Positions 7,082 to 27,636 of a stretch of 32,057 nucleotides of DNA are shown in pieces. Positions within the stretch are counted from its first letter, which is position 1, and each line of letters opens with the position of its first letter. The stretch spans positions 1-32,057 of the forward strand of contig JAHJDE010000064.1 in NCBI GenBank assembly GCA_018812525.1, read 5' to 3'. The stretch is from Gammaproteobacteria bacterium. GTDB lineage: Bacteria > Pseudomonadota > Gammaproteobacteria > Chromatiales > Chromatiaceae. The notes beneath the pieces were generated by a model. The model searched no databases. It saw nothing but the letters and a program-made list of their open reading frames with translations, and was not told the DNA's origin. The translations under genes and the position numbers were made by a program.

Positions 7082-7109
7082 CGCAATATTCTCTTGTGAA
7101 ACTCGCCAG

Positions 7110-9476: not shown

Positions 9477-9480
9477 TTTT

Positions 9481-11788: not shown

Positions 11789-14062
11789 CTAAGGTGAAAC
11801 GATCCTGGCGAGACGAAAGCCGGTGATGTCGTACCGTAACGCCGTGACGTCCCTGATGCGTCTGGCGGAGCGGACGCTCCACGGTCCGTCGTCCCAGGAA
11901 CCGCCGCGCAGCACAGGAGCGACACTGGCATCATTCTTGCCGGAGCACTGTTTCTCACCACCCCCATAATCCCTGTCATAGGCCGAACAGGTCCATTCCC
12001 AGACGTTGCCCAGCATGTCGTTCAAACCCCAGGGATTGGTTTCAAAACTCCCCACCGGGGCGGTGGCCGCCTGGCTGTCGTCACAGTCGTGATGCGTCCA
12101 GGTGAAGCCCTTGTTGACCCGTCTCGAGGTCTGGTCGTGGACGTTGGCGTAGCGGCAGGCACGGTCGGGACTATCGCCCCAAAAACGCGCCGTATCGGTC
12201 CCCGCCCGCGCCGCGTATTCCCATTCGGCCTCGGTCGGCAGGCGGTAGTTCTTTCCCGTTTCCTTGCCGAGCCATTCGGCATAGGCGGTGGCGTCGTTCC
12301 AACTGACACAGGCCACGGGGTGATTGTCCCCCTGCCGGAAGCCGGGGTCTTTCCAACTGCGACCCGCCACATAGCCAAAGTCGCCCTGGGCCTTCTCGGA
12401 AAAACAGCCTTCATTGCCGCCGGCATTGCGTTCGGCATCGGTCCGGTAACTCGTGGCGTTCACGAAACGCCGGAATTGGCCCACCGTGACCTCGTGCTTG
12501 GCCAGCCAGAAATCGCCGACGCTGACCCGGTGCTGTTTTTCATCCTTATCCCTGCCCTCTTCGCCCGAGGGGCTGCCCATCTGGAAACTGCCGCCTTCGA
12601 TCTTGATGAATTCCATGCCGGTCTTGGGGTCGCGGTATTGCTTCTCTTCCAGGGGCTTGAGTTCGGCCGTGACCTGTTTCCATTCGCCCCGGCGGATTTC
12701 AACCTGACCCTCCCAGGGCTGGCGCCCCTCGGCCTCGATGCGGATTCGGTGGCTGCCGGCGCTGATGCCTTCTTTGTTGAGGGGGGCGTTGGGGCCGGCG
12801 CTGCCGATATCCTTGTCATCGAGCCAGACGCGGGCGTTGGGGGCATCGACGTTGAGCTGGAGCTGGCCGGTCATGGGGAGGGGCGCGGGCTGGGGCTCTT
12901 GTGGCGCGGGTTGTCCTTGGCCCGCTTGTTCGTAGTCGGGCGGGATGATGATCTCTATCCGGCCCCGCCCGTTGTCGCGCTGACCCATGAGGAAGGCGAT
13001 GACGATGAGGGCAAGGATGAGGATCCCGGCGCCCATGGCCTTCAGGGTTCTGCCTCGCCGCTGTCTGGCCTTGCGCTGGAGCCCCTGAAATCGTTCGCTC
13101 TCTTCGACCCGGCAGGTCTTGTCATTGCCGTCGCCGGGCGGGGGCGGGTCTGGCAGGGACTGCGGCTGGCCGCCGCCGGTTTGGAAGATTTGCAGGACTT
13201 CGCCACAGCCCTGCGGCCGCTCCTTGGATTTGATGGCGAGCAGGCGGTCGGTAAGCTGCAACAGCCAGGGTTCGGCCCGGCCTTGGCCGGCCTGTTGGGC
13301 CGGGATGAGGGGATCGGCTTCGTCTTCGTTGAGCTGGTGGCTGCGGACCACGGATTCAATCGGGACCTGGCCGGTGATGAGACGGTAGAGGACGGCGCCC
13401 AAGGCGTAGAGGTCGGTGTAGGGGCCTTGCTTGCCGTGGCTGCTGTATTGCTCGGGCGGGGCGTAGCCTTGGCTGACGATGGCGCTGAGGCTTTTGCTGA
13501 CATCGAGCAGGGCGTGCCTTGCCGCGCCGAAGTCGATGAGGAGGGGGCCGCCTTCGTCGCGCAGGTAGATGTTGCCGGGCTTGATGTCGCGGTGCAGGAG
13601 CCCGGCTTGATGGACCTTTTCGAGCCCTTGCAGCAGGGGGACGATGAGTTCGAGGATCTGGCCCTGGTCGAGGGGCCTGGGGTCTTGCAGGCGCTCTTCG
13701 AGGGTCTGGCCCGCCTCGTAGTTCATGACGATGTAGGCGGTGCCGTTGGCCTCGAAGTGATCGAGGATCTGGACGATGTTCGGGTGGGTGAATCGGGCCA
13801 GGGCCTTGGCCTCGTCCAGGTAGCGCTCCAGGCCGTGGCGGTAGTCGGCCTCGCGGTTGGTGCGGGGGCGTACCGTGATGGAGTCGCTGGCGCGGGCGCC
13901 CATCTCGGCCGGCAGGTATTCCTTGATGACGACCGTCCGCTCCAGCCGTTGATCCCGTGCCGGGTAGGTGATGCCGAAGCCGCCTTCGCCCAAGACCCGC
14001 TCGATACGATAGCGCCCTTTCAGCAGGGTGTCGGGTGTCAGGCTGTGGGCGATGGTTTCCAT
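11789..14062 (-). CDS. Ser/Thr protein kinase, TM, PEGA and FGE-like sensor domains
   Basis: A 757-residue single-pass membrane kinase. The Hanks-type kinase domain covers about residues 18-290: GEGGFGITY loop, Lys47 in VVIKEYLP, HRDIKPGN at 157-164, DFG at 177-179 and YAPPEQY, all intact. A basic stretch (RKARQRRGR) precedes a membrane helix at about 343-360, so the kinase is cytoplasmic and the rest periplasmic. A PEGA domain (about 398-470) and an FGE-sulfatase-type domain (about 482-755; AKHEVTVGQFRRF, RLPTEAEWEYAARAG, MLGNVWEWTCSAYD, RGGSW, GFRLA) follow. The copper-binding cysteine pair of true FGE is not visible near RGGSW, so this is probably a ligand-binding lectin-like fold. The gene follows a small exported protein by 16 bp and ends the long minus-strand series. 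Unlike the kinase-FGE paralogue at 16880-19042, it contains a PEGA domain. Confidence 0.88.
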   Translation of the reverse strand: METIAHSLTPDTLLKGRYRIERVLGEGGFGITYPARDQRLERTVVIKEYLPAEMGARASDSITVRPRTNREADYRHGLERYLDEAKALARFTHPNIVQILDHFEANGTAYIVMNYEAGQTLEERLQDPRPLDQGQILELIVPLLQGLEKVHQAGLLHRDIKPGNIYLRDEGGPLLIDFGAARHALLDVSKSLSAIVSQGYAPPEQYSSHGKQGPYTDLYALGAVLYRLITGQVPIESVVRSHQLNEDEADPLIPAQQAGQGRAEPWLLQLTDRLLAIKSKERPQGCGEVLQIFQTGGGQPQSLPDPPPPGDGNDKTCRVEESERFQGLQRKARQRRGRTLKAMGAGILILALIVIAFLMGQRDNGRGRIEIIIPPDYEQAGQGQPAPQEPQPAPLPMTGQLQLNVDAPNARVWLDDKDIGSAGPNAPLNKEGISAGSHRIRIEAEGRQPWEGQVEIRRGEWKQVTAELKPLEEKQYRDPKTGMEFIKIEGGSFQMGSPSGEEGRDKDEKQHRVSVGDFWLAKHEVTVGQFRRFVNATSYRTDAERNAGGNEGCFSEKAQGDFGYVAGRSWKDPGFRQGDNHPVACVSWNDATAYAEWLGKETGKNYRLPTEAEWEYAARAGTDTARFWGDSPDRACRYANVHDQTSRRVNKGFTWTHHDCDDSQAATAPVGSFETNPWGLNDMLGNVWEWTCSAYDRDYGGGEKQCSGKNDASVAPVLRGGSWDDGPWSVRSARRIRDVTALRYDITGFRLARIVSP
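11800..11905 (-). other. Candidate hypervariable region (DGR-like) of the kinase's FGE-like domain
   Basis: It occupies the same position as 7488-7592, between RGGSW and GFRL. Several codons are NNC (GAC, AGC, ATC, TAC) where the paralogue has a different NNC codon. Framework codons such as those for GGSW, VRSA and GF are shared. A CTTTACTCCTTTACCCC stretch follows the stop, similar in pattern to that after 7485. Confidence 0.35.
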
Positions 14063-14078
14063 GGGGGAACTCCTCGGG

Positions 14079-14456
14079 TCAGGGGGCGCTGTAGATGCCG
14101 ACCAGCCCCCAGTTGTTCTTTTCGGAGGCTGATCCGGCGTAGTGGAGTTCGCCCTTGTACCAGCCGGAGATGGTGATCTTTTTGACCCGCGGGCAGATCA
14201 TGCCCATGACGGCCCTGGATTTGCCGACGACCATCGTCTGCAGATACTCCCCGTCGGGGGGGACGAAGATCGAGGCGTCCTCAAGGGCGGTGATCTTGAG
14301 GGCGACCTCTTCGCCACACCAGTCGGTCCGTACTGAAACGCCAGAGAAGTGGGGCAGGTCGTTGAATCTGAATTGCGCCGCCAAGGCGTTCCCCGACGGG
14401 ACCAACAGGATGAGGGGCAGCAACAGACGCGGCAAGATTCTGGCATTGGTGGACAT
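14079..14456 (-). CDS. Small exported protein of unknown function
   Basis: A 125-residue protein with a clear signal peptide (residues 1-27, LLLPLILLVPSGNALAA). The mature part is about 100 residues, beta-rich, with two cysteines (DWCGEE and MICPRVKK) that could form a disulfide. The ATG at 14456 is preferred because the GTG at 14465 lies too close to the AGGAT motif that serves it. It sits 16 bp upstream of the PEGA/FGE kinase gene and after the SH3 protein gene, so it probably belongs to the same transcript. It could be a periplasmic partner of the kinase sensors, but I do not recognise the family. Confidence 0.7.
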   Translation of the reverse strand: MSTNARILPRLLLPLILLVPSGNALAAQFRFNDLPHFSGVSVRTDWCGEEVALKITALEDASIFVPPDGEYLQTMVVGKSRAVMGMICPRVKKITISGWYKGELHYAGSASEKNNWGLVGIYSAP

Positions 14457-14486
14457 GGGATTCACATCCTACTTTTCAAAATTACC

Positions 14487-14578
14487 GTAGCCCGGATGAA
14501 ACACAGTGTAAGCCGAGAGGTGCGCGGCACCGATCCTCCCGGATTACGCTTCGCTCCATCCTGGCTACGCGCGGAATC
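14487..14578. repeat. GTAGCCCGGATGAA repeat, family 3
   Basis: The unit runs from GTAGCCCGGATGAA to its near-complement CCATCCTGGCTAC, with GGATTACGC inside. A second copy lies at 21982-22064. This is a widespread style of dispersed inverted repeat. It separates the SH3 protein gene from the small exported protein gene within the long operon. Confidence 0.65.
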
Positions 14579-14592
14579 TTGGTTTGCCTGCA

Positions 14593-15405
14593 TCAGGACC
14601 AGGTGCCATCGGGCTGCTGACAGGCCTGGATGGTCTGGGAGACCACTTTGCCTTTCTTGTTGGTGACCTGCTGTTCGACGGAGCGGCAGGTCTGCTTCGC
14701 GGTGACCTCGACGGCGGCGATGCTCTCGTCCCCCTTTGCTGGCTTATGGGTCGCATCCACGGGGACACCGGTCGCCTCCAGGTATTTCGAATCGACGAAG
14801 CCCACGGCGGCGCCATTGCGCGACATGACATACCAGGGTTTGTTTTCCACCTTGGCGATGATGTCCACCGTCTGATCCTTTTTCAGATCCTCGTGGGATT
14901 GATAGTCATCGCCCGGCCCACCCCTCAGGTTGGCATCTTCGATCAGCTTGTACTGACCACCGACGTTCAACTCCAGGGGCGGCAGTTCGGCGATGCGGTC
15001 CTTCATGTAGGTGGCGGTTACGGTCTTGTCCGCTACCTTTTCCTCCTTGACGGCGGTTCTTCCCCTGACCCCGGTCTTCTTGTCGTGCCATTCCGACGAT
15101 TCGCCGGTGACCAGCGAGGTCTGGGTCGAACGCACCATGCGCCGCTTGTTGGGGGGGGTGAGGGCCTTGGCGATGCCGTAGCCGACCAGGCCGCCGACCG
15201 CAGCCCCCAGCAGGTTGTTGTCGGCAAGCTTCATGCCCACGACAACCCCCGCCCCGACCAGCAGCTCCTTCTTGTGCTTTTTCACGAAGCGGCCCACGCC
15301 ACTGGTCGCCTTCTTGACCCCACCCATGAAGGAGGCATCCACCGGCGGCGCGCCGAGGACAAACACCAGGCACGAAAGGACTACCCATGCTGATTTTCTG
15401 ATCAT
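14593..15405 (-). CDS. Exported SH3-domain protein with glycine-zipper-like segment
   Basis: A 270-residue exported protein: signal peptide at residues 1-24, then a basic helix (RFVKKHKKELL) and a glycine-rich hydrophobic stretch (LLGAAVGGLVGYGIAKAL, about 65-82) resembling a glycine zipper that could insert into a membrane. A bacterial SH3 domain lies at about 150-210 (ANLRGGPGDDY, VDIIAKVENKPWYVMS, GFVDSKYLEA), a fold that often binds peptidoglycan or peptides. The C-terminal QTIQACQQPDGTW resembles the end of 17-kDa surface-antigen-type lipoproteins. AGGAG eight bases upstream supports the start. It lies 27 bp downstream of a kinase gene, so co-transcription is likely. A role in anchoring the envelope-spanning signalling proteins is possible but inferred. 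Confidence 0.75.
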   Translation of the reverse strand: MIRKSAWVVLSCLVFVLGAPPVDASFMGGVKKATSGVGRFVKKHKKELLVGAGVVVGMKLADNNLLGAAVGGLVGYGIAKALTPPNKRRMVRSTQTSLVTGESSEWHDKKTGVRGRTAVKEEKVADKTVTATYMKDRIAELPPLELNVGGQYKLIEDANLRGGPGDDYQSHEDLKKDQTVDIIAKVENKPWYVMSRNGAAVGFVDSKYLEATGVPVDATHKPAKGDESIAAVEVTAKQTCRSVEQQVTNKKGKVVSQTIQACQQPDGTWS

Positions 15406-15432
15406 CTCTGTTCTCCTAGTTACTCACACCTA

Positions 15433-16845
15433 TCACTTTCTCAGTATCACCATTCGCTCGCGGGCCGCCGAGGCATGCCTTCCATCCGGATATTTGCGCA
15501 GATAGAGCTGGTAGGCGTAAGAGGTATCGATTTCCCGCACGACGGCATAGTCGGCCTCATCTGCCGGTGGTACTGCCGCCTCCGGTGTTACTGCCGCTAC
15601 AGACAGTGACCCGGCCGGGGGCGATCCCTGCCGATCAGCGACCGCTGAAGCGGGCGGCAAGACCTCGATGGTGTCCACGCCAGTTCCCTGGACCGCTCCC
15701 TGCTGGAGCAGGGGTTCGATGCTCACGCCAGAAAGGCCCCGGCCGACGAAGTAATAACCCAGGGCGATAATGGCGCTAACCCCCACAAGACTAGCCAGGA
15801 CAGGATTGGTCCAGCGCTTGCGCATCCCGCCCCCGATTCCCGTTGTCGAGGCATCCCGGAACCGTTCCGCCTCGTCCATCACCAGTGTGGCCTGGCGCGT
15901 CACGGGGTGGGCGGTAACAACCGGCGCCAAATCGGGCGCACGCTCCCCTTCCCAATGGGTGGCGATGACCTTGAGTACCTCATCGCAGTCCTGGGGGCGG
16001 TCCCTGGATGGGATGCGCAGCAGCCAGTCGTCCAGTTCGAGCAGCCAGGGCGCCACCCTGCCCTGGCCAGCGGTCTGGGCGGAAGGGAGGGGATCGGGCT
16101 CGCCCTCGTTGAGGCAGTGGCTGCGTTCCACCGATTCCAGGGGGGCCTCGCCGGTGATCAGTTCGTAGAGGACGGCGCCTAGGGCGTAGATATCGGTGAA
16201 GGGTCCCTGCTTGCTGCGGTTGCTGTACTGCTCCGGCGGCGCGAAGCCCTGGCTGACCACGGCGGAGATGCTCTTGCTGTGCTCGCCCAGGGCATGGCGC
16301 GCGGCCCCGAAATCGATCAGTAGGGGGCCGCCGGATTTGCGCAGAAAGATGTTGCCCGGCTTGATGTCGCGGTGCAGAAGGCCCGCCCGGTGTACCTCGC
16401 GCAGCCCTTGCAGCAGGACGATGAAAAGGGAGAGGATCTCCTCCTCGTTCAGGCGGCTGCCGCGCTTCTTGAGATGGTCGGCCAGGGTCTCGCCCTCCTC
16501 GTACTCCATGACGATGTAGGCGGTGCCAAAAGCCTCCAGATGATCGATGATGCGGACGATGTTGGGATGCTGGAAGCGGGCCAGGGCCTTGGCCTCGTCC
16601 AGGTATTTGTTGAGCCCGTAGAGGAAGTCGTCCTCCCGATTGGTGCGGGGGAGCACCCGCAGGGTATCGCCGTCGCGCACCCCCATCTCGCCCGGCAGGT
16701 ACTCCTTGATCACCACCAGGCGTTCGAGCTTCTCGTCCCAGGCCCGGTAGGTGATGCCGAAGCCGCCCTCGCCCAGGATGGCCTGGACCCGGTAACGACC
16801 GCCGACCTTTTCGTTGATGGGCAGGGTATGGCTGTAGCTCTTCAT
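15433..16845 (-). CDS. Ser/Thr protein kinase with one TM helix
   Basis: A 470-residue kinase. All Hanks motifs are intact: GEGGFGITY, Lys47 in VVIKEYLP, HRDIKPGN, LIDFGAAR and FAPPEQY. A membrane helix lies at about 348-367 (ASLVGVSAIIALGYYFVG) after a basic RKRW, giving a cytoplasmic kinase. The ~100-residue periplasmic tail has no FGE-like domain; instead it is proline/alanine-rich and ends in a YQLYLRKYPDGRHASAARER motif. That motif resembles the linker found after caspase domains (compare QSYRDQYPQGRF in the 7485-9151 locus). The ATG at 16845 has GGAAGGA just upstream; the 44 codons before it overlap the previous gene's end. The gene follows the kinase-FGE gene by 34 bp, consistent with tandem duplication. 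Confidence 0.85.
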   Translation of the reverse strand: MKSYSHTLPINEKVGGRYRVQAILGEGGFGITYRAWDEKLERLVVIKEYLPGEMGVRDGDTLRVLPRTNREDDFLYGLNKYLDEAKALARFQHPNIVRIIDHLEAFGTAYIVMEYEEGETLADHLKKRGSRLNEEEILSLFIVLLQGLREVHRAGLLHRDIKPGNIFLRKSGGPLLIDFGAARHALGEHSKSISAVVSQGFAPPEQYSNRSKQGPFTDIYALGAVLYELITGEAPLESVERSHCLNEGEPDPLPSAQTAGQGRVAPWLLELDDWLLRIPSRDRPQDCDEVLKVIATHWEGERAPDLAPVVTAHPVTRQATLVMDEAERFRDASTTGIGGGMRKRWTNPVLASLVGVSAIIALGYYFVGRGLSGVSIEPLLQQGAVQGTGVDTIEVLPPASAVADRQGSPPAGSLSVAAVTPEAAVPPADEADYAVVREIDTSYAYQLYLRKYPDGRHASAARERMVILRK

Positions 16846-16879
16846 GCTTTCCTTCCCGATTGTGTAATAGCTCCGGCCA

Positions 16880-19042
16880 TCAACGGGCGACCCGGAGGAG
16901 ACGGAAACCCAGGCCAAAAAAGCGTAGGGCAGCGATTGCCTGGCGGCGGTCGGCGGAACGGACCTCGCTGGGGCCACTCATCCAGGCGCCATCCCGAATC
17001 ACGCGCGGCGCCTCGTCGCTCCCCCCCGTGCAGCGTGTCTCCCTGTTCTCGTACTCTTTGGCATAACCGGAACAGGTCCACTCCCCCAGGTTGCCCGACA
17101 TATCATAGAGGCCAAAGGGATTTGGCCGGTATTGCCCTACGGGCGCGGGCAGGGCGTAGCGATCATTGCAGTCGTGAATGTATTTCCATCCACCCCAGCG
17201 CGCCTTCGCCGTCTGATCGGCCACATTACCATAGAGACAGGCGTGTTCGGGGGCATCCCCCCACCAGCGCGCGGTCTCGCTTCCCCCTCGCAGGGCATAT
17301 TCCCACTCCGCCTCCGAGGGCAGGCGATAGTTCTCGCCCGTTTCCCGGCTCAGCCACTCGGCGAAGGCCATGGCATCGTTCCAACTGACGCAGGTAACGG
17401 GGTATTCATTACTCTGTTCGTAGCCCGGATTGCGCCAACTCAGCCCCTTGACGAAGCCCAACTTCCCCCGCCGGGTGATGCCGGCACATCCCTTCGCCCC
17501 CCCCGCGGACCGCTCCGCGTCGGTCTTGTACTGGGCCGCCTCGACGAACTTGCGAAACTCCCCGACCCGCACCTCGTATTTCCCCATGGCGAAATCCTCC
17601 ACGCAGACCGGGTGCCGCTGTTCATCGTCATCGCGGCCCTGCTCGGATTCGGGGCTGCCCATGGGGAAACAGCCGCCCTTGATGGGTACGAAGGCCATGC
17701 CGGTCAGGTCGTCCTGGACCTCCTCCGGTGAATCCAACCGCGGCGGGGCCGGACTCTCAAAAGGAACCCCGGTTGTCTCCTCCAACCGTGGCGCGGCCGC
17801 TTCGCTCTCCTCGCCCGATTCGAACGCCTCGCCCGATTCGAACCCCTGTGACAGATCCCCCTGGGCGGCTTCGCTCTCCCCCATCAGGCCCTGGACCTGT
17901 TCCGGTTGCAGGATCTCCACCTTTCCGCCGTTCCCGCCCCCGAACAGGGACGCACCGATGCCAAGGACCACTATCACCACCAGAACCCCCGCCACGAGTA
18001 TGCCCCATTCCGTCGATTTGCCTTTCGCGGCAGCCGGCTTGGACTGGCCAAAACGCTCGGCCTCGGGCAACTGATAGGTTCCCTGGCGCGCCAATAGGTC
18101 TTCGTGCCCTGGCGGAATAAGGGATGGATGAGGCATACCTCCGCCTTGAAGCTCGCTTCCGACGCACTTCAGCACCTCGGCGCAATCCTGCGGGCGATCC
18201 TTGAAGGAGAGGCACAACAGGCGGTCGATGAGGTCGAGCAGCCAGGCCGAGGCCCTGCCCTGCCCGGCCTTCCTTGCCGGCGTGATCGGATCGGGCTCCC
18301 CTTCGCTGAGGGCATGACTGCGCACCACGGATTCGAGCGGTATCTTGCCCGTCACCAGTTCGTACAACACCGCGCCGAGGGCATAGAGATCGGTGGCGGG
18401 CCCTTGTTTGCCACGGCTGCTGTATTGCTCCGGCGGGGCATACCCCTTGCTGAGGATCACCGAGAGGCTCTTGCTGTGTACGCCCAGGGCGTGACGCGCC
18501 GCGCCGAAATCGATCAGCAGGGGCCCGCCCCCCTTGCGCAGGAAGATGTTGTCCGGCTTGATATCGCGGTGAAGCAGTCCAATCCGATGGACCGACATCA
18601 ATCCTTGCAGGAGGGGGATGAGGAGATCGCGTATCTCCCCTTCACCCATGGGTGCCCCGCGCCCCCGGAGGTGGTCGAACAGGGTCTCTCCCTCCTCGTG
18701 CTCCATCACGAGATAGGCGGTGCCGTTGGCCTCGAACCAGTCGAGGACCTTGACGATGTTGGGGTGGCTGAACTGGGCCAGCGCCACGGCCTCTTCCAGG
18801 AACTTCTCCAGGCCATAGCGCAGATCCCCCTCCCGCTCGGTGCGGGGAAGGATGGTCTGGGCATCCCTGTCACGTATCCCCATCTCGGCCGGCAGGTATT
18901 CCTTGATGACTACCTGCCGGCGCAACCGCTCGTCCCATGCCTTGTAGGTGATACCGAATCCCCCCTCCCCGAGGATTTCTAAAATGCGATAGCGGTCGGT
19001 GATCAGCCCGTTGGTGGGGAGTGCATGACGGTATGTCTTCAT
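16880..19042 (-). CDS. Ser/Thr protein kinase, TM and FGE-like sensor domain
   Basis: A 720-residue membrane kinase. The kinase domain (about 18-295) keeps every catalytic motif: GEGGFGITY, Lys47, HRDIKPDN at 158-165, DFG at 178-180 and YAPPEQY. A membrane helix lies at about 345-367. An acidic, proline-rich linker leads to an FGE-sulfatase-type domain at about 447-717 (GMAFVPIKGGCFPMGS, GKYEVRVGEFRKF, RLPSEAEWEYALRGG, YDMSGNLGEWTCSGY, GFRLL), which would face the periplasm. The usual RGGSW is RDGAW here, and no FGE copper-binding cysteine pair is visible. Its end is less NNC-rich than in the paralogues at 7485 and 11789, so it may be a fixed, non-diversified sensor. The gene lies 22 bp after the pseudokinase gene and 34 bp before the next kinase. 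Confidence 0.87.
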   Translation of the reverse strand: MKTYRHALPTNGLITDRYRILEILGEGGFGITYKAWDERLRRQVVIKEYLPAEMGIRDRDAQTILPRTEREGDLRYGLEKFLEEAVALAQFSHPNIVKVLDWFEANGTAYLVMEHEEGETLFDHLRGRGAPMGEGEIRDLLIPLLQGLMSVHRIGLLHRDIKPDNIFLRKGGGPLLIDFGAARHALGVHSKSLSVILSKGYAPPEQYSSRGKQGPATDLYALGAVLYELVTGKIPLESVVRSHALSEGEPDPITPARKAGQGRASAWLLDLIDRLLCLSFKDRPQDCAEVLKCVGSELQGGGMPHPSLIPPGHEDLLARQGTYQLPEAERFGQSKPAAAKGKSTEWGILVAGVLVVIVVLGIGASLFGGGNGGKVEILQPEQVQGLMGESEAAQGDLSQGFESGEAFESGEESEAAAPRLEETTGVPFESPAPPRLDSPEEVQDDLTGMAFVPIKGGCFPMGSPESEQGRDDDEQRHPVCVEDFAMGKYEVRVGEFRKFVEAAQYKTDAERSAGGAKGCAGITRRGKLGFVKGLSWRNPGYEQSNEYPVTCVSWNDAMAFAEWLSRETGENYRLPSEAEWEYALRGGSETARWWGDAPEHACLYGNVADQTAKARWGGWKYIHDCNDRYALPAPVGQYRPNPFGLYDMSGNLGEWTCSGYAKEYENRETRCTGGSDEAPRVIRDGAWMSGPSEVRSADRRQAIAALRFFGLGFRLLRVAR

Positions 19043-19064
19043 GACCCGGTCCCCTGCCTGGAGA

Positions 19065-20153: not shown

Positions 20154-20243
20154 TGGCTAGATTCCTGCGTTATAGGTCCCATCGCAATATCGTCTCGTCT
20201 CAGGTCCAGCAGCCCTTCCCGTGAAAAACGTGAAGCACCTTTG

Positions 20244-20280
20244 CTCCCTCTCCCTCTGGGGGAGGGTTGGGGTGGGGGAA
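20244..20280. repeat. GC-rich palindrome between caspase-FHA and pseudokinase genes
   Basis: CTCCCTCTCCCTCTGGGGGAGGG forms an imperfect stem and is followed by further G-runs. It resembles the CCCTC palindromes elsewhere in the window. It may modulate expression within the operon, but nothing more can be read from it. Confidence 0.5.
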
Positions 20281-20283
20281 TGT

Positions 20284-21729
20284 TCAGCCGCCCTCGATCC
20301 GGTCCTTGTGGGCAATCACCACCAGAGGCGTCCTCTCGTCCGCCAGATAGAACACCCGGCCCGACTCCAAGGGATAACGCTTGCCGGGCTCCAGGCGATC
20401 CTTCTTACCCCACCAGGTGCCGTTGGATGAATTCAGATCCTCGATCCAGAAGCGCCTACGCTCCTTGTCCCAGCCCAGACAGGCATGTTGACCGCTGATG
20501 GTGTCGCGGCCGATTACCAAATTGACGTTCTCGTTCCGCCCCAGGACAAGATCGTACCTTGGGGTAACCAGGGCCAGGAGCTTTTTCTGCCGCACATCCT
20601 TGACGTAACCGACGATATCCTCCGTAACCAGGCGGCTCTTCTTCTTGACCTCTTCCAGGACCTGGGCATCGACCACCAGCTTCTCGGTCAGATCGATACC
20701 GCGCGTCCAGGCCATGCGGCCGCGATACCGGTAATAGAAGAAGACGAGCAGCAGGCTCAATAGCGCCGCAATCCCGTAGATGACGCGCAGCCAGAGCGGC
20801 GTCTCTTCATAGGTGGTATTGACCAGGATTCGCGAACCGGGAATGAACATGAAGTCGCGCACCAGCGAACCACCGGTCTCAGGCGTCTGCGCGGAACGGG
20901 TTTCATCGTCCACCGCCGCCGTCACCTGCATCATGAGCTGGTTCACTGTCGCCCCCTCGATGCCGATCCGTTCCAGGATGTGCTTGGTAAAGACCCCGTT
21001 ACGGCCGCTGCCATCGGCGGCCGTCTTACCGTAGCCCGTGCCGAATGCCCAGAACAGCCCCTTGATGTTGAAAGAGGCACGCGGCTTGGCCCAGCCCTTC
21101 ATGCTCAGGGGATTGTCGCGGCAGGCATCCAGGATGATTAGGTTCGAACCCTGCTTGTTGCCGGCATCCAGGATCTGCCGCAACACCCGGTCCAGCTCGA
21201 TCAGATTCACGGCCCCTTCCGGCCCCTCGGCCGGATCGATCCGCTGCATGCCTCGGCCCCCCTGGCCCCCGGCACCCTTCCTGGCGGAGGAATCGGCAGG
21301 CCGGGCATCCACCGGCACGATGAAATTGGTATTGTCGATCTGCACCCCATGGCCGGCGTAATAGAACAGACCGACCGCCTCCGGCCCCAGTTGGTCGAGC
21401 TTCTGGCGGAAGACCCGCAGCCGTTCCAGGAATTCGCCCTGGGTCAGGTCGATGCCGCAGATCACACCAAAACCGAGCCGGGATAGCACAGCGGCCATGT
21501 CACGGGCATCGTTGACGGCGTTGGGGGTAGGGCTGAAAGCCTGGTATTGGGTATTTCCGGCCACGAAGGCGAGGCGCGGCTCCTTGGCGCGGACGATCGG
21601 CAACGTGCCGACCAAACGCCCGATCTCGGGAGAGGCATCGCAGTGCCCGGCGGCCCATGCCCCATTCAGGCCGAGCAGCAAGCCCACGGCTGCCACCACC
21701 TTGGCCAACGTAAAACGGAATTCCATCAT
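20284..21729 (-). CDS. Periplasmic caspase linked through a TM helix to a cytoplasmic FHA domain
   Basis: A 481-residue protein with an unusual order of parts. A signal peptide (residues 1-27, GLNGAWAA) leads to a caspase domain (about 50-300) with catalytic His127 in YYAGHGVQ and Cys203 in LDACRDNP. A membrane helix follows at about 313-333 (LRVIYGIAALLSLLLVFFYY), immediately trailed by RYRGR, so the chain re-enters the cytoplasm. A forkhead-associated domain fills about 392-475: LGRNENV, then IGRDTISGQHACL and the LNSSNGTW loop; the Gly-Arg, Ser-x-x-His and Ser-Asn elements are those that bind phosphothreonine. Thus a phosphopeptide reader inside the cell is joined to a protease outside the inner membrane. 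Neighbouring genes encode membrane Ser/Thr kinases, plausible sources of the phosphothreonine. Two adjacent ATGs follow an AAGGGA site; either may be used. Confidence 0.9.
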   Translation of the reverse strand: MMEFRFTLAKVVAAVGLLLGLNGAWAAGHCDASPEIGRLVGTLPIVRAKEPRLAFVAGNTQYQAFSPTPNAVNDARDMAAVLSRLGFGVICGIDLTQGEFLERLRVFRQKLDQLGPEAVGLFYYAGHGVQIDNTNFIVPVDARPADSSARKGAGGQGGRGMQRIDPAEGPEGAVNLIELDRVLRQILDAGNKQGSNLIILDACRDNPLSMKGWAKPRASFNIKGLFWAFGTGYGKTAADGSGRNGVFTKHILERIGIEGATVNQLMMQVTAAVDDETRSAQTPETGGSLVRDFMFIPGSRILVNTTYEETPLWLRVIYGIAALLSLLLVFFYYRYRGRMAWTRGIDLTEKLVVDAQVLEEVKKKSRLVTEDIVGYVKDVRQKKLLALVTPRYDLVLGRNENVNLVIGRDTISGQHACLGWDKERRRFWIEDLNSSNGTWWGKKDRLEPGKRYPLESGRVFYLADERTPLVVIAHKDRIEGG

Positions 21730-21856
21730 CGTTTTCCCTTGAAAATGACGCGATCAAGCAGGGCTACATACCCTCACGGCTGGCAGGGAGTTTACTCAAT
21801 CCCTTCCAATCCACTCAACCCAGATTTTCCATTAGCCGATTAGTCATGCCAACAGC

Positions 21857-21940
21857 CGTTCGTGGTGAGCTTGTCGAACCATGAACGGCCCTTCGACAAG
21901 CCTGTCCTGCAGCGAAGACGAAGGGCTCAGGGCGAACGGT
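21857..21940. repeat. Dispersed repeat with TTCGACAAG core
   Basis: CCGTTCGTGGTGAGC, then GTCGAACC, the complementary TTCGACAAG and a closing GGGCGAACGG form nested inverted repeats. This style of repeat is common in proteobacterial genomes. It fills much of the 331-bp gap between the PDZ-WD40-caspase gene and the caspase-FHA gene, together with the family-3 repeat, and I see no gene there. Confidence 0.65.
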
Positions 21941-21981
21941 TTCCAGGCTAATGGATAATCCGGGCTCAATCGAAATTACCC

Positions 21982-22064
21982 CGTAGATCGGTTGAAGCAA
22001 AGCGCAATCCGGGAAGCGCCTGGCCCGGATCATCCCGGATTACGCTGCGCTTCATCCGGGCTAC
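21982..22064. repeat. GTAGCCCGGATGAA repeat, family 3
   Basis: It ends CTTCATCCGGGCTAC, the complement of the start of the copy at 14487-14578, and shares its GGATTACGC segment. The last bases of the repeat supply the stop codon of the PDZ-WD40-caspase gene, so the repeat may have slightly altered that gene's end. Confidence 0.65.
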
Positions 22065-25000
22065 TGCACCCGAAACAACGGATTATCCCGCCCAAAGTTG
22101 ATGATATAGGGCGTCTGGGGGTGTCCCAGGGTCTTGGAGATCGCGGTGGTCTCTTGCCGTGCCCGCTGGCCCAGTTCGATCACGCCGACCTGGTTGTCCT
22201 GGTTGCTGTCGGTCTTGACGGCCTCGTTCATGCCTTTGAGCAGGCTGTGGGTGAAGAGGCCGTTGCCTTGGTAGCCGTCCAGGGCCTCTTGGACGCTGCC
22301 GGCGGAGGCGTAGATGTGCAGCCCCATCTTTTTGGCCAGGACGGACATGCGGGCGTCGTAAAGGCCGCTGACGATGTTGTCCACGCCGCCGGCGTGGCAG
22401 GTGTCGAAGACGAGGAGCTGGGACAGGGCCTTGATGCCCTTGGAGAGTTCGACGATCTCGTTGGAGCTGATGAGGCTGCCGGGTTCGAGTTTGCCGTCGA
22501 AGCCGGCAGTGACGATGTAGTACTGGTTTTCCAGCAGTACGCCGTGGGAGGCGACGAAGAGGATGAAGCTGTCCCAGGGTTTGATCTGGGTGGAGAGGGC
22601 CTGGATGGCCTGCTGGATGCCTTCCTTGCTGGCCTGGGCGTCGCTGAGCCCCTGGATGTGGATGTGCTCGGGCTTGAACAGGCCTTGCGCCTTGTCGCGG
22701 ATCAGGGCCTGGAAGTCGTTGGCGTCCTTGGCGGCGTATTGCAGGCTGATGCCGGGGTCGCGGTAGTGGTCGATACCGATGCCGAGGACGTAGAGGTGGG
22801 GCTCTTCGGGTTTTCTATCAGCCTGGAAGCGGATGGTTTCCAGGCTGCTCTGGACGCTGTTGGTGGCGTTGAAGGCGGCCAGGCCGATCTCGTTTTCGCC
22901 GGGGAGGGTCTCCACCTCCAGGCATTCCTCGAAGCTGTCGCCCTTGTCGCGGGCGGTCACGGCGGCCTGGGACATTTCCGTCCGCTGTAGCCCGCGCAGC
23001 GCACGGTAGATGGCCGTGCCGTCGAGGCTGGCGAGTTGAAGTTTATCGTCGGCCTTGCGGGCGGTGGCCTCGCGGTAGAAGCCATCGGATTTGATCAGCT
23101 TACCGTTCTGGAACAACCGCACCTCGCCGATGCCGCCGCCCGTGCTGGCGATCTCATAGCAGATCCGTTCCTTGTCGCTCCGGGAACTGCTGGGGGCTTG
23201 GGTAAAGCGGGGCGTGGGCGGCGGGTTCTTGAGGGCCTCGGCGGCGGTCAATGTAATCAGGCCGGCGATCTCCTCGCCCCGGAACTTGGCCTGGACGATG
23301 TCAGGCCGGTAGAAGACATCGTAGAACTGGTTGAAGGGAAAGAAGCGGGCGGCCTTGTCCTTGCCCTGGTTCAGGTGCCAGCCGACCAAGCGGTCGGCGC
23401 CGGGCGAGGCGTCGTAATAGCCCTCGGGGGTCCAGAGGATCCACTCCTTGGTCTCCTTGTGGACGAAGAGGGCCAGGAGTTCCTGGCCATCTGAGTAGCG
23501 GTACCAGCGGATGGTGCCATCGCCGAATGCGGCCACGGCCAAGCGGCCGTCTTGGCTTAGGTTGACGCCCCAGGCAGGGTTGAGCACGGGGATTTTCCAC
23601 TCCAGCCGGCCCTTCCGGTCGAAACGACGCAAGAACCACTCGGTGCCCAGCAGCAGACTCTTCCCATCAGTGGCCACCGCCAGGGCGCGGGAGGTCTCGT
23701 ATTGCTTCAGGGCCAGGGCCTGGCCGTTGAGTTGGGGGCTGTCCGCGTTCTTCCAGCCGCTGACCTTAAGCCCCTTTGCCTTCAGCCGGGGCGGGTGCAG
23801 CCCAGCGGGCAGGGTCTGGGCCTCGCTTAGTTGCCGCTGGGCCAGGTCGAAGAGCAGGGGTTCCTTGCCGCCAAAGCCTAAGCCGAAGCGCACTTGGCGG
23901 CCATCGGCGCTGAGGAGGAAGTTTTTGTCCAGTTTCTTGCGCAGATCGGCGATCACCGCCCGCTGCTGCCCTTGCAGCTTGCCGTCGCGGTCGAACCGCA
24001 GCCAGGCCGGGTCGGCGGCCCCCACCAGCAGGCCGCCGTCCGGCAGGGGGCGCAGGTCCATGATCGTATTGTTGGCGGCGGGCCAGAGGGAACGCGGGCC
24101 GCGCCCGCCCTGCCCCCAGACCACTACCGGACGGTTGCCATCTTTGTAAAACCTTCCCCCCGTGAACATCCCCCCCGCGAACAGCCGCCGTCCGTCGGCG
24201 GACCAGGCGACCCTGCTCAGGTTCCCGATATCGATCCCCTGGGTGTCGGGCTGGAACAGGGGCCTGAGGTCCCGGCCCGAGAGGACGGCGACGGCGGTTG
24301 AGTCGTCAAAGCCCACCGCGATCCGGGTGCCGTCGGGGGAGAAGACGGCAGCGAAGGGCCGTTCGCCCCCCGGCGCCTTCCGCTTGGCGATCAGTTTCAG
24401 GTCGGCGTCATAGAGGCGGAGATGGCCGTCGATAGAGCTGGTCAGCAGCCGCCCCGCGCCATCGAACTGGCACCAATAGCTTTGATCGCCGTAGTCGCTA
24501 TCGGCGCCGGTCTCGCGCCCGCTCTGTGTCTCCCAGACTCGGATGCCATTCTTGCCCCCCAGGCCGGCGGCCAGGCGGTGGCCGTCGGCGGAGAAGCAGA
24601 GGTGGTTGATGACATTGGGCAGGCCGGTCAGGCGCCGGCGCAGCTCGCCGCTGGCGCGGTCGAAGAGGTAAATTTGACCATCATTGTCCCACTCTTTACC
24701 TGTCCAGCCCCCTGCGGCGATCCAGCGCCCGTCCGGGGAGATCGCCGTGGCGTAGAGCTTGCCCTCATCGCCCGCGCCGATGGGGGGGCGCAGGGTCTGG
24801 AGCAGACGCCCATCTTCAAGCGACCAGAGACGCAGGGTCTTGTCAAGGGAGGCCGTGACCAGGAAGCGCCCCGCCCCGGCCACCCCGATGCGTTTGATCT
24901 GGCCCGTGTGCATGCCGGTTTCCAGCCGCAGGATGGGCTCCTTGGGCGGCTCTTTATTGACAGGGACAAGAGATACTATCGCCACTCCTATCTTGCCCCC

Positions 25001-25477
25001 TTTGATCCCCACCCCATGCATCAGGCCGTTGCGCAGATAACAGAGGAAGACATCTTCCTTGACGCCTGTCTTTCCCGTCAGTTCGATCAGATGCTCATTG
25101 CTGTGCAAGGGCTGGCCGGCATATCCAACCAGGATATCTCCAGGCCACAACCCCACTTTCTCCCCCTGGCCGCCCGGCACCACCACCTGCACCAGCACCC
25201 CGCCCGCTTTACCAAAGAGTTCAGGCTGGGAAATCCTGAGTTGCCGGGCGTTTTCCCATAAGACATTTTTCTTTTCATCCTCTGTCTGCTTGCCCCGCAG
25301 GATGCCTTGTAAAGCAGCCTGGGCCTGGCGGTCAGACTCCGATGTCCTCTTTACCGCCAAACGACAGATATCGGCCTCCCCGCCCTCAGCCTGGGCGGTC
25401 TGTGCCGAGGCGATGACAGGCATCGAGGCCGAAATTCCAATCAGCGCAAATACCAAGAAATATCGAACCATGCTCAT
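22061..25477 (-). CDS. Exported PDZ-WD40-caspase protein
   Basis: A 1138-residue exported protein. A signal peptide (about 1-25) is followed by a helical segment, a PDZ-like domain at about 90-155 (GVLVQVVVPGGQGEKVGL, PGDILVGYAGQPL) and a run of WD40-type repeats at about 190-660 (RFLVTASLDKTLRLWSLEDG, FSPDGTRIAVGFDD and similar). Next comes a signature region (EWILWTPEGYYDASPGADRL, FYRPDIVQAKF) seen in other WD40-caspase proteins, and a C-terminal caspase domain at about 890-1130 with His978 in FVASHGV and Cys1027 in FDTCHAGG. Catalytic residues are intact. The propeller probably recruits partners or substrates and the protease acts in the periplasm. GGAGAG about seven bases upstream supports the start. 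It follows the FGE-like gene by 32 bp and is separated from the caspase-FHA gene by repeats. Confidence 0.9.
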   Translation of the reverse strand: MSMVRYFLVFALIGISASMPVIASAQTAQAEGGEADICRLAVKRTSESDRQAQAALQGILRGKQTEDEKKNVLWENARQLRISQPELFGKAGGVLVQVVVPGGQGEKVGLWPGDILVGYAGQPLHSNEHLIELTGKTGVKEDVFLCYLRNGLMHGVGIKGGKIGVAIVSLVPVNKEPPKEPILRLETGMHTGQIKRIGVAGAGRFLVTASLDKTLRLWSLEDGRLLQTLRPPIGAGDEGKLYATAISPDGRWIAAGGWTGKEWDNDGQIYLFDRASGELRRRLTGLPNVINHLCFSADGHRLAAGLGGKNGIRVWETQSGRETGADSDYGDQSYWCQFDGAGRLLTSSIDGHLRLYDADLKLIAKRKAPGGERPFAAVFSPDGTRIAVGFDDSTAVAVLSGRDLRPLFQPDTQGIDIGNLSRVAWSADGRRLFAGGMFTGGRFYKDGNRPVVVWGQGGRGPRSLWPAANNTIMDLRPLPDGGLLVGAADPAWLRFDRDGKLQGQQRAVIADLRKKLDKNFLLSADGRQVRFGLGFGGKEPLLFDLAQRQLSEAQTLPAGLHPPRLKAKGLKVSGWKNADSPQLNGQALALKQYETSRALAVATDGKSLLLGTEWFLRRFDRKGRLEWKIPVLNPAWGVNLSQDGRLAVAAFGDGTIRWYRYSDGQELLALFVHKETKEWILWTPEGYYDASPGADRLVGWHLNQGKDKAARFFPFNQFYDVFYRPDIVQAKFRGEEIAGLITLTAAEALKNPPPTPRFTQAPSSSRSDKERICYEIASTGGGIGEVRLFQNGKLIKSDGFYREATARKADDKLQLASLDGTAIYRALRGLQRTEMSQAAVTARDKGDSFEECLEVETLPGENEIGLAAFNATNSVQSSLETIRFQADRKPEEPHLYVLGIGIDHYRDPGISLQYAAKDANDFQALIRDKAQGLFKPEHIHIQGLSDAQASKEGIQQAIQALSTQIKPWDSFILFVASHGVLLENQYYIVTAGFDGKLEPGSLISSNEIVELSKGIKALSQLLVFDTCHAGGVDNIVSGLYDARMSVLAKKMGLHIYASAGSVQEALDGYQGNGLFTHSLLKGMNEAVKTDSNQDNQVGVIELGQRARQETTAISKTLGHPQTPYIINFGRDNPLFRVQ

Positions 25478-25509
25478 GCCATTACTCTCCTCGATGGATT
25501 TTCGTTGCT

Positions 25510-26856
25510 TTATTTCCTCGGCCTGCCTTCGAAGACCTCCACCCTTTCCTCCGTGGCACCGGCTGCCGATCCCAGTGGGTGATTGTCGCTTGGCGACGCC
25601 TGACGGACCAGGCGAAATCCCCCCACAGGACCGGATCTTCGGCTGGCCGAGCGGCAGCCCGACGGGAAATCAGTAAATCCCCCACCGCGAAGCACCCGGC
25701 TTTCACCCTCAAGGGGTCCGACCGGATCCTCTGTCGGGCTGTGGGCATAGCTGTTTTCCGCGTACCGGTCCTGCACCCACTCCTCGACATTGCCGTAGGT
25801 GTCGTACAGTCCCCAGGGATTGGGCCGTTTCAGGCCGACGGGGTGGACATGGTTTTCCCCCACATCGACGCTGTTCTTTCGGTACCAGGCGTGTTCACCC
25901 AGGTGGGTGATGGCGGAGCTGTCGCCAAAGAAGTATCGGGTAGAGGTCCCGGCGCGGGCGGCATACTCCCACTCCGCTTCGGTCGGCAGTCGGTAGGATT
26001 CGCCGCCTTCCTTGCGATTCAACCAGGCGACCAAGTCCTGGGCGGTCCGCCAGGAGACATCGGCCACGGCGGCCTGATCTCCCTGCCCATTGGCTTCCAT
26101 GAAATCGTTTGTCAACAGATGGCGGCGTCCGGTATCGGCGATGTATTTCTTGAATTGCCCCAGGGTGACCTCATGCATGCCCATCTGAAAGCCTTTAGTG
26201 ATGCGCACCAAGTGCTGGGGGGTTTCGATGGCATCGGCATCGCCATCCACCCCCGCGCCCGACGGACAGGGGACCCCCGCCGTGGTTTCACCCATGAAGT
26301 CACGCCGTTGATCCTCGAATTGCTGCGCCGGGCTGTACATGCAACTCCCCATGTAGAAACTGCCGGGCGGCAGGTTGACGAATGCCATCCCCAGAGTGTT
26401 GACATAGTCCGGCGTCCGCTGTGCTGGTTTGCCGCGATCCGGTTGTCTCTCAGGGGTGGCATCGGCCTTGTTCAAGTCGTGGAGCACATGCCTGAGCGGT
26501 CGTGAAGAGAGGGTGACATTGACATGGCTCTCGTCGATCTGGAGTCGCCCCCCCTGGCTGGAGAGGGTAATCCGCACCTTGCCGAACGCCTCGATGCCGA
26601 TACCCTGTTCCGGGGCGCTAATGACCTCTTTGACTGACGAGTAGAGGGTCGCCCGACCGTTATCCAAGAGCTCCACCCGCTTGATGGTCCGCTTTTGACT
26701 GATCCGTTCCCTACTGGTAATGCCCCAATCCCGATCCAGTCCCAACAGATACTCCTCTTTATTCTGGGTGATAGGTACTGCGCCAGGGGCTTGCGGCGTG
26801 GTCATTTTGAAGTGGAAGACCGCGTGATCCGAGATCAACGCACGCACCGCCTCCAT
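25510..26856 (-). CDS. FGE-like protein with N-terminal NTF2-like domain (leader out of frame)
   Basis: The intact frame gives 448 residues. The N-terminal ~130 residues, together with upstream codons ending in IALIESWDQAETRKD, look like an NTF2/SnoaL-type domain. An FGE-sulfatase-type domain occupies about 155-420 (MAFVNLPPGSFYMGS, GMHEVTLGQFKKYI, RLPTEAEWEYAARAG, YDTYGNVEEWVQDRY, RVLRGGGFTD, GGFRLV). There is a single cysteine after RGGGF (SGCRSASR) rather than the pair of a working FGE. The in-frame ATG at 26856 is probably not the natural start: 155 bp upstream a good start and signal peptide are one base out of phase across a C9 tract. With one extra C the gene would run from 27011 and encode 500 residues. 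The gene lies between an exported protein and the WD40-caspase, 32-37 bp from each. Confidence 0.78.
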   Translation of the reverse strand: MEAVRALISDHAVFHFKMTTPQAPGAVPITQNKEEYLLGLDRDWGITSRERISQKRTIKRVELLDNGRATLYSSVKEVISAPEQGIGIEAFGKVRITLSSQGGRLQIDESHVNVTLSSRPLRHVLHDLNKADATPERQPDRGKPAQRTPDYVNTLGMAFVNLPPGSFYMGSCMYSPAQQFEDQRRDFMGETTAGVPCPSGAGVDGDADAIETPQHLVRITKGFQMGMHEVTLGQFKKYIADTGRRHLLTNDFMEANGQGDQAAVADVSWRTAQDLVAWLNRKEGGESYRLPTEAEWEYAARAGTSTRYFFGDSSAITHLGEHAWYRKNSVDVGENHVHPVGLKRPNPWGLYDTYGNVEEWVQDRYAENSYAHSPTEDPVGPLEGESRVLRGGGFTDFPSGCRSASRRSGPVGGFRLVRQASPSDNHPLGSAAGATEERVEVFEGRPRK

Positions 26857-27011
26857 ATCCTTCCTGGTCTCCGCTTGATCCCAGGATTCAATCAGGGCAA
26901 TGACGGCACCTTGGGTCAGCGGCTGTTCCGCCGCGTTGGAAATCAGGGGGGGGGTAAAAACAACATCGCAAGGAAAAATACCAAAGACCTATCAAATACC
27001 GCCAGTTGCAT
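26857..27011 (-). other. Displaced signal-peptide leader and C9 tract of the FGE-like gene
   Basis: AAGGAG six bases before the ATG at 27011 begins a frame MQLAVFDRSLVFFLAML that ends in FLPPP and a TGA at the C9 run 26946-26954. One extra C (or two fewer) would continue into LISNAAEQPLTQ and then the frame of the FGE-like gene, creating a classic signal peptide with a likely SNA-A cleavage site. The break is the same type and direction as at 8377-8386. Confidence 0.7.
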
Positions 27012-27048
27012 TCCTGTCTCCTTTGCCCAGATTCACACAGAGTTCAGC

Positions 27049-27636
27049 TCATTCCGCCAAGAAGATCCACCCCTTGTCGAGCCGTCGACCGGGGAAGCTT
27101 TCCCATACGGCCACCATCATCGGCATGCCGCCAAACTTCCCTTCCCGGTATTTTTGCAGAACCGCCTTGGCCCCCGGCTTCAGAGCGTATTTGATCACGC
27201 CTTGCTCTACTGTCTGCTGGAAGGGTTCCTGGAGATAGTATTTCAGGCACCAAACCCTGTCCTTATTTTCCTCATCGTTGCAGGGCGGGCCAAAGCCATA
27301 GAGGTCGAATCCCTCCCAGGTGAGGATATTGGTACCGAAGGAGAGGTAGATCTCTCCTCTGTAATCACCCTTGAGATGGAATTCCTGCAAGGCATCTATG
27401 GCCATATGCGCCACATCAGCCGCATCCGCAATGACGGTGGGCGAATCCGCTTCCCGTTTGTAGGTCCAGTCGATCCCAACCAGGCGGGGGCGAAGGGTGC
27501 AATAGTGGACGTCTTTTTCCTGCAAGAATTGGTTGCCATTGAGGTAGATGCCGTCGTTAACGTACTCGGCGGCCTGCCCGTTTCCGGCAATCGGTAGCAG
27601 GCACAAGGCGGATAGCGCCATTATTGCCTTCCTCAT
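27049..27636 (-). CDS. Exported protein of unknown function
   Basis: A 195-residue protein with a signal peptide (residues 1-23, MALSALCLLPIAGNGQAA). The mature part has three cysteines, many aromatic residues and no motif I recognise; landmarks are YVNDGIYLNGNQFL, LSFGTNILTWEGFDLYG and the closing GWIFLAE. GGAGGAGGA directly precedes the ATG. It appears to be the first gene of the long minus-strand series, 37 bp upstream of the FGE-like gene's natural start, so a periplasmic role in the same system is plausible. The family is unknown to me. Confidence 0.75.
   Translation of the reverse strand: MRKAIMALSALCLLPIAGNGQAAEYVNDGIYLNGNQFLQEKDVHYCTLRPRLVGIDWTYKREADSPTVIADAADVAHMAIDALQEFHLKGDYRGEIYLSFGTNILTWEGFDLYGFGPPCNDEENKDRVWCLKYYLQEPFQQTVEQGVIKYALKPGAKAVLQKYREGKFGGMPMMVAVWESFPGRRLDKGWIFLAE

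Follow-up and report, generated by a model that had tools for sequence, protein, structure and literature searches.

The window considered here, a stretch of 32,057 nucleotides that makes up one contig (JAHJDE010000064.1, referred to as C145) of a 3.5 Mb gammaproteobacterial genome in 215 contigs (G000), carries at 11789-27636 a series of ten open reading frames (ORFs) that encode membrane Ser/Thr kinases, caspases and lectin-fold proteins, together with variable regions (VRs) of the type written by diversity-generating retroelements (DGRs). A first-pass annotation, made from the letters alone, had described the series as a signalling island in which an external ligand activates kinases, phosphorylation is read by an FHA domain and a periplasmic protease is thereby switched. 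This interpretation is partly supported by the present analysis; the DGR variable regions were passed over in it. Domains were called with Pfam at its curated cut-offs in 20 window proteins, transmembrane segments (TMs) and signal peptides were taken from a hydropathy scan, and kinase motifs were judged by eye. Genes are named below by their first coordinate, and G001 denotes the genome of a genus-mate.

All ten ORFs lie on the minus strand, and Pkinase scored above cut-off in four of them. Gene 11789 (11789-14062) encodes a Ser/Thr kinase domain (residues 18-284), a TM (342-360), a PEGA domain (400-470) and an outer domain of the FGE/C-type-lectin fold (484-753), as assigned by Pfam, hydropathy and a fold model. 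A membrane Ser/Thr kinase without an FGE domain (15433-16845) is the first gene of a triad completed by an SH3-like protein (14593-15405) and a small protein (14079-14465), both with signal-peptide-like starts. The two remaining members are a kinase-TM-FGE protein (16880-19042), whose C-terminus matches both DGR templates described below poorly, and a membrane pseudokinase (19065-20153). The Hanks-type catalytic Lys, HRD and DFG motifs are present in three of these four (VIKEY, HRDIKP and IDFG in 11789, 15433 and 16880), while 19065 fails at DFG, having HRDIQ for HRDIK (HRDIQP) and NFS for DFG (INFS). A single TM was found in each kinase, within residues 339-367. The four genes are 65-77% alike in DNA over three 300-base blocks and are, on this alignment, tandem paralogues.

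Upstream of the kinases on the minus strand lies the caspase-FHA gene 20284 (20284-21729), whose product reads, from its N-terminus, as a signal-peptide-like segment (6-24), a caspase domain (52-293), a TM (312-330) followed by RYRGR, a linker and an FHA domain (395-462). Both domains scored above cut-off, Peptidase_C14 (PF00656) with 100.5 bits, and the FHA domain has GR, SxxH and NGT residues, which we take to be its signature. His127 and Cys203 are invariant across six aligned caspases, and the modelled caspase superimposes on the MALT1 paracaspase with a Z-score of 27.8 and a root-mean-square deviation (rmsd) of 2.7 over 215 residues. Model confidence, as means over ten residues, was 81-94 for residues 51-140, 78-89 for residues 221-290 and 41-75 over most of the stretch between. 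The next gene, 22061 (22061-25477), encodes a signal-peptide-like start, a PDZ-like segment, WD40 repeats and a C-terminal caspase (898-1093). Neither 20284 (27.8 bits) nor 22061 (51.6 bits) reached the 140-bit cut-off of the NF047832 family, "Caspase with EACC1".

The series is completed by an FGE-like protein with no recognised signal peptide and no good template match (25510-26856) and a small protein of no Pfam family (27049-27636). The gene content proposed in the first-pass annotation largely stood. The three intact membrane kinases, the pseudokinase, the caspase-TM-FHA protein and the FGE-like proteins (FGE-sulfatase above cut-off in 11789, 16880 and 25510; PEGA in 11789) were all recovered. 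In the proposed PDZ-WD40-caspase protein the WD40 and caspase domains are secure, and the PDZ domain (19.5 bits against 27), like the SH3 domain of 14593 (22.7 against 27), is plausible only. Of two small proteins said to be exported, 14079 has a signal-peptide-like start, while 27049 looks exported by eye, yet was not flagged by hydropathy. Hydropathy prediction supports the suggested topology, with the kinase domains inside and their tails outside, and with the 20284 caspase outside and its FHA domain inside; signal-peptide-like starts, as proposed for the caspases, were seen in both 20284 and 22061.

The spacing is less regular than had been described. Five of the nine gaps measure 16-40 bp, while the others reach 127, 130, 192 and 331 bp, and repeats are found in three of these four wide gaps; a single operon is therefore not established. 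Promoter and terminator scans were dropped as evidence on this point (2 promoter-like sites against 3.8 expected, 23 terminator-like sites against 13.8). In a PADLOC search the kinases matched the PD-T4-6 and mad6 models and the caspases gave matches of at most 70 bits; membership of the kinases in PD-T4-6 or mad6 was not accepted because the matches fall mainly within the kinase domain. A partial thermolysin-type (M4) metallopeptidase lies at 27916-28572, at the upstream edge of the island.

The FGE genes 7485 and 11789 are alike, as judged by eye, until about their last 40 codons, where they diverge. Since this pattern is typical of DGR targets, the genome was searched for reverse transcriptases (RTs) and FGE domains. 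Contig C30 was found to carry a complete DGR, referred to as DGR1, comprising a kinase-PEGA-FGE target (2512-4710), Avd (4875-5273; NF033474 109.9 bits against a cut-off of 80, PF22296 64.5 against 40), an RT (RVT_1 at 5653-6291, E 1.1e-18, inside ORF 5311-6717) and, overlapping the frame of the RT, a template repeat at about 6521-6641. This RT is 45% identical to that of G001 in alignment and contains GNLTSQ and YVDD, motifs of DGR-type enzymes. Placement of the template repeat inside the 3' end of the RT ORF, in the same frame as the target VR, was seen in five of seven loci (L027, 5311-6717, and L070-L073; not L076 or L077).

Comparison with the DGR1 template (template 1) located a VR of 120 bases at 11805-11924 on the minus strand of the window, corresponding to codons 713-752 of kinase 11789. 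Twenty mismatches separate the template from the VR of the C30 target at 4574-4694, all 20 at template adenines (p 6e-15), and 20 separate it from the window VR, 18 at template adenines (p 6e-11), with no excess at C, G or T in either case. Sites other than adenine are identical to the template at 89 of 89 positions in the C30 VR and at 86 of 88 in the window VR. Within the window VR, changes at adenines fall at codon positions 1, 2 and 3 in 9, 8 and 1 cases, respectively. On this comparison, the region in 11789 is shown to be a second, remote VR of DGR1, an element that looks intact from its sequence. The external input proposed earlier thereby gains strong independent support, in that the outer domain of this kinase holds a DGR variable region. 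With 17 variable codons, two of which could also yield a stop, template 1 has a coding potential of about 10^16.6 proteins. Resemblance to template 1 extends to an FGE gene on contig C6 of G001, in which 79 of 83 non-adenine sites are identical and adenines account for 16 of 20 changes.

Adenine bias alone was not accepted as the mark of a target, because several non-target FGE genes show it to a moderate degree (16880: 25 of 54 mismatches at adenines, p 9e-6); identity at non-adenine sites was considered jointly with it. Ten FGE genes not taken as targets served as controls, namely 16880 and 25510, the genes on C37, C69, C65, C175, C91 and C72, and one each from the relatives G039 and G032, and these keep 59-78% of the non-adenine sites of template 1, against 98-100% in the two VRs. 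The two DGR1 targets were also compared in steps of 60 bases. DNA identity is mostly 0.55-0.88 in the kinase part, falls to 0.45-0.58 just before PEGA and then runs at 0.76-0.93 from PEGA to the VR, save for one step of 0.45; the outer module has thus been transferred to another kinase.

The FGE domain of 11789, modelled with 35 other sequences, reached a mean predicted local distance difference test score (pLDDT) of 90. Structural comparison (Foldseek, VIA-align) grouped it with PvdO and formylglycine-generating enzymes (Z about 31). Variable proteins of known DGRs also matched, namely variable protein 1 of Treponema denticola (Z 26.8, rmsd 2.3, 219 residues aligned), Thermus aquaticus TaqVP (Z 13.6, rmsd 3.5, 189 residues) and the phage major tropism determinant Mtd (Z 13.4, rmsd 3.4, 157 residues). 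Active formylglycine-generating enzymes have an active-site cysteine pair near the C-terminus. No cysteine occurs in codons 713-752 of 11789, model residues 236-275, so that the domain is one for binding, of the FGE fold, and not the enzyme. Prediction thus shows the variable residues to sit in a C-type-lectin-fold domain outside the inner membrane, with the kinase domain inside.

A second type of DGR (DGR2) is intact in G001, on contig C55, where a kinase-PEGA-FGE target differs from its template at 19 positions, 17 of them adenines, and keeps 93 of 95 non-adenine sites. An intact RT and template of this type were found in G001 only. The orthologue in the window's own genome (L034, at 15858-17514 on C66) is decayed: its template lacks 24 bases, an insert separates template and RT body, and the RT frame runs, before YVDD, into a dispersed repeat that recurs in the window, on C30 and C93, and elsewhere.

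A VR of DGR2 type was found in the window at 7488-7613 on the minus strand, at the 3' end of gene 7485. This gene is the FGE half (7485-8447, minus strand) of a split caspase-FGE gene, the caspase half of which (8342-9151, minus strand) has a signal-peptide-like start. Compared with the G001 template, the VR has 26 mismatches, 18 at adenines (p 4e-8), and identity at 87 of 95 non-adenine sites, and 7485 is read from this comparison as a former target of the DGR2 type. The two halves overlap in different frames, the overlap contains a G10 tract (8377-8386; C10 on the coding strand), and the relative G032 has the same architecture in one ORF of 548 residues. The frameshift at the tract may be real, phase-variable or an assembly error. 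A mild adenine bias against template 2 was also noticed in FGE genes on C37 (L028, about 8050-8200) and C91 (L031, about 9400-9570), which are possibly older DGR targets by this measure.

The wider distribution of this DGR family was surveyed by a sequence search with the two RTs, which returned at least 586 stretches, at least 521 of them encoding a relative; the best 80 loci were retained. Among relatives of the window genome, 10 of 142 genomes, its own included, have a related RT at 1e-50. In an automatic test for repeat pairs, 64 of the best 80 loci showed a pair with mismatches biased to adenine, as against 0 loci for C, 0 for G and 2 for T; 16 loci lacked an adenine pair, of which L145 has one in the opposite orientation. 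Target domains were scanned with Pfam in 19 of the first 24 RT-related loci (L070-L093; L080, L081, L082, L084 and L087, where target fragments or none were seen, were omitted), and an adenine pair is present in 17 of the 19, L079 and L093 being the exceptions. Outside the domain scan stand L112, L118 and L132, with RTs 72-73% identical over part of their length. The 19 presumed targets include three with a caspase (L070, L074 and L089), two with a TIR domain (L077 and L088), one with a kinase (L075) and two with AAA and leucine-rich repeats (L092 and L093).

The closest locus among the matches listed, L070 (RT 80% identical), has a caspase-FGE target with 16 of 17 mismatches at adenines; its start looks like a signal peptide by eye and lies at the hydropathy threshold without being flagged. 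In L075 a TM separates kinase and FGE domain, and the evidence for a VR is weak (6 of 7 at adenines, p 1e-4). A further caspase-FGE target occurs in L101, and kinase-FGE targets are found as well in L134 and L145, planctomycete loci that fall outside this clade. In L074 (854-3247) and L089 (1886-5065) a hydrophobic segment and a caspase precede peptidoglycan-binding and FGE domains, with PEGA in addition in L089, and 14 of 15 and 19 of 20 VR mismatches, respectively, fall at adenines. The L077 target (5408-7534 on contig CAIRCM010000039.1 of an Acetobacteraceae metagenome-assembled genome) has a TIR domain, a single TM behind RPKR, and an FGE domain bearing a VR (15 of 16 mismatches at adenines), an architecture suggestive of a Toll-like receptor in the membrane whose outer lectin domain is hypermutated.

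Below 11789 lie the caspases 6185 and 8342, the FGE gene 7485 and two DUF4384 proteins. The product of 6185 (6185-7186, minus strand; Pfam and hydropathy) is a predicted exported caspase and belongs to a caspase/DUF4384 cluster that recurs on contig C7 of G001. On the minus strand at 215-4219, a set made up of two DUF4384 proteins, one protein with a single TM and one with weak sigma-70 similarity (12.8 bits against a cut-off of 42.9) is perhaps a regulator of the caspase cluster, and a 151-base repeat is 99% identical between 4785-4935 and 9326-9476. The kinase-SH3-small-protein triad recurs on C50 of the same genome, with its kinase frameshifted, and on C4 of G001. Elsewhere, G032 has three caspases together on C68, one with FGE, and C40 of G039 groups PP2C, several kinases, a kinase-PEGA-FGE protein and an FHA protein, with no caspase in the stretch viewed.

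The eight gene types of the first-pass annotation were found nowhere else in the same order, and the island was rejected as a conserved unit; only modules recur. At 1e-10 the SH3 protein matches 2 of 142 genomes, both of this genus, at 1e-60 the WD40-caspase matches 9 of 142 (the match in G090 covers residues 169-1127), and at 1e-20 the caspase-FHA protein matches 4 of 92, each count including the window's own genome. The other caspase-FHA matches, in G001, G036 and G053, never cover both caspase and FHA, and the full protein was found in none of the 91 other genomes. Scattering of these genes among relatives, named beforehand as grounds for giving up the island, is thus borne out in part: the caspase-FHA and WD40-caspase proteins were not found in the same form in the genus-mate, while the triad and the caspase/DUF4384 cluster recur. 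The linker-FHA half of 20284 is 46-47% identical to caspase-less FHA proteins encoded on C25 of G001 and on C50, each beside a PP2C phosphatase gene; a kinase/phosphatase system thus appears to have supplied the FHA module to which the caspase was fused. The window looks like a point where modules mobile within this lineage have come together.

Taken together, template comparison shows a complete DGR on C30, its remote VR in 11789 and a DGR2-type VR in the 7485-9151 pair. Somewhat more probably than not, the island belongs to a sensor-effector array of the envelope in which a retroelement diversifies the receptor domains. In such an array, the RT would copy the template with random adenine changes and write the copy into both kinase genes, 11789 in trans, whereby sibling cells would carry different receptors. 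Binding of an outside ligand would dimerise and activate the kinase, the caspase-TM-FHA protein would recognise the resulting phosphothreonines through its FHA domain, and its outer caspase domains would be clustered. Proximity would then activate these periplasmic caspases, as in paracaspases, and the exported caspases could damage or remodel the envelope, in cell death or defence. The step at the receptor is likely; the kinase-FHA-caspase relay is one that we infer, weakest at the passage from FHA to caspase. Among possible functions, surveillance of an external ligand is the best supported, and defence by cell death is plausible because effector domains are found across the RT clade. In the most specific version, a family of single-pass receptor kinases (in cis and in trans) and a secreted caspase would have their outer lectin-fold domains hypermutated by the retroelement, while FHA would read receptor phosphorylation through the membrane and gate a periplasmic paracaspase; this version is tentative and rather unlikely.

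Several observations weigh against the diversified sensor-effector array. No RT was found in the window by the RT search of the genome, so diversification of the window VR must act in trans; in this VR, where activity is presumed, two of the 20 changes are off adenine. Non-adenine VR sites are only marginally better conserved between the two DGR1 targets than upstream sequence (86 of 89 against 271 of 300, p 0.08), and a hairpin 3' of the window VR was discarded as support, being no better than chance (z 0.48). Neither of the other FGE genes of the island could be retained as a current target, since 16880 keeps 51 of 80 non-adenine sites of template 1 and 58 of 87 of template 2, and 25510 keeps 29 of 44 and 30 of 49. 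The contrast is weaker for template 2, of which C37 keeps 75 of 92 and C91 63 of 78 non-adenine sites against 87 of 95 in 7485. Around the C30 element the genes are housekeeping-like, and Pfam found no conflict-system gene in the seven neighbours scanned; caspase, TIR, kinase and AAA domains are all lacking in 11 of the 19 related targets. As regards the relay, the linker-FHA part of the 20284 model is of low confidence, the genus-mate has only the linker-FHA half of this protein at 1e-20 and no match to the WD40-caspase at 1e-60, and no PP2C was found among the 20 window proteins, although PP2C flanks the FHA genes on C50 and on C25 of G001.

The alternative that survives best is that DGR and kinases serve ligand recognition, adhesion or regulation directed at neighbour cells, surfaces or nutrients and unrelated to killing, the nearby caspases being housekeeping or regulatory proteases. 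Cellular DGR targets are linked mainly to cell-cell and cell-particle binding in the available sections of Roux et al. 2021 (PMC8144416), tuning of regulatory kinases is proposed in those of Vallota-Eastman et al. (PMC7517822), and kinase-PEGA-FGE genes occur on C30 and C65 with no caspase in the stretches viewed. However, caspase and TIR domains are found among targets of the same RT clade, and the DGR-type FGE domains of the window are either paired with a caspase (7485-9151) or encoded in the same series as the caspase-FHA protein. This alternative is a real possibility, though not a probable one. It is unlikely that the window VRs are fossils, left by a DGR once active and now fixed after recombination had spread the paralogous FGE modules. 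The decay of DGR2 in this genome, the 8 of 26 changes off adenine in the VR of 7485 and the evident recombination of PEGA-FGE modules all favour such a history, but DGR1 looks intact and the 11789 VR follows its template closely at non-adenine sites. An ordinary Hanks-kinase signalling cluster in which chance FGE paralogy mimics a DGR is very improbable and strongly disfavoured, since, although FGE C-termini resemble N-rich templates and non-targets can show moderate adenine bias, the controls fall well short of the two VRs at non-adenine sites, a complete DGR with Avd is present and mismatches at the best 80 related loci are concentrated at adenine.

If the diversified sensor-effector array is real, programmed receptor diversification would be tied directly to single-pass receptor kinases and exported caspases. 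The vague question of what exported bacterial caspases and FGE-kinases sense would become a testable one, namely which ligands select which VR alleles and whether FHA binding switches the caspase. In addition, the template/VR pair offers a concrete marker of activity for metagenome reads.

Several components of this picture are already in print, as far as the available sections of the papers go: DGR-diversified kinases and caspases (PMC7517822), caspase-FGE proteins (PMC3501461) and DGR-linked conflict systems (PMC10907252, PMC7159879). Most clusters of cellular DGR targets carry a TM or signal peptide according to Roux et al. (PMC8144416), and DGRs are described, with target functions given as unknown, in sulfur-oxidising Gammaproteobacteria (PMC10686091). 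No description was found of DGR-diversified single-pass PEGA-FGE kinases beside a caspase-TM-FHA protein, in a literature search that mostly left subscription journals outside its range. The metacaspases of Asplund-Samuelsson et al. 2012 (PMC3501461) share the joining of a caspase to FGE or WD40 and, in some cases, an N-terminal hydrophobic segment; FHA does not occur in the accessible text of that study, and its available passages draw no link to DGRs.

Further close parallels come from Thiohalocapsa PB-PSB1, the DGR antigen sensors of which (Dore et al. 2024, PMC10907252) likewise involve several DGR classes in one genome, loci at which trans activity best explains diversification, kinase among the target domains, CLec sensors combined with conflict effectors, and degenerate loci with repeats like miniature inverted-repeat transposable elements (MITEs). 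The decayed DGR on C66 resembles these MITE-damaged loci. The Thiohalocapsa systems, as presented in the sections available, centre on STAND NTPases or MoxR-vWA, neither of which was found among the 20 window proteins and seven C30 neighbours. The same search, which did not extend to the rest of the genome, found none of the vWA, MoxR ATPase and STAND NTPase components of the VMAP/STAND ternary conflict system (PMC7159879, seen in part).

The 20284 caspase shares its fold, and by analogy perhaps its proximity-type activation, with the MALT1 paracaspase; it differs in being bacterial, predicted to be exported and joined through the membrane to an FHA domain. The cyanobacterial DGR kinases and orthocaspases (Vallota-Eastman et al. 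2020, PMC7517822) share with the present system a C-terminal CLec/FGE domain with a VR, joined to a kinase or caspase, and remote targets, kinases among them. Those targets are mostly predicted to be cytosolic in the sections available, with some evidence of TMs or secretion, whereas here one TM places the variable domain outside, after PEGA, and beside a caspase-TM-FHA protein. Should the proposed array hold, its layout would stand closer to animal receptor-kinase and Toll-like signalling than do most of the DGR-linked systems compared.

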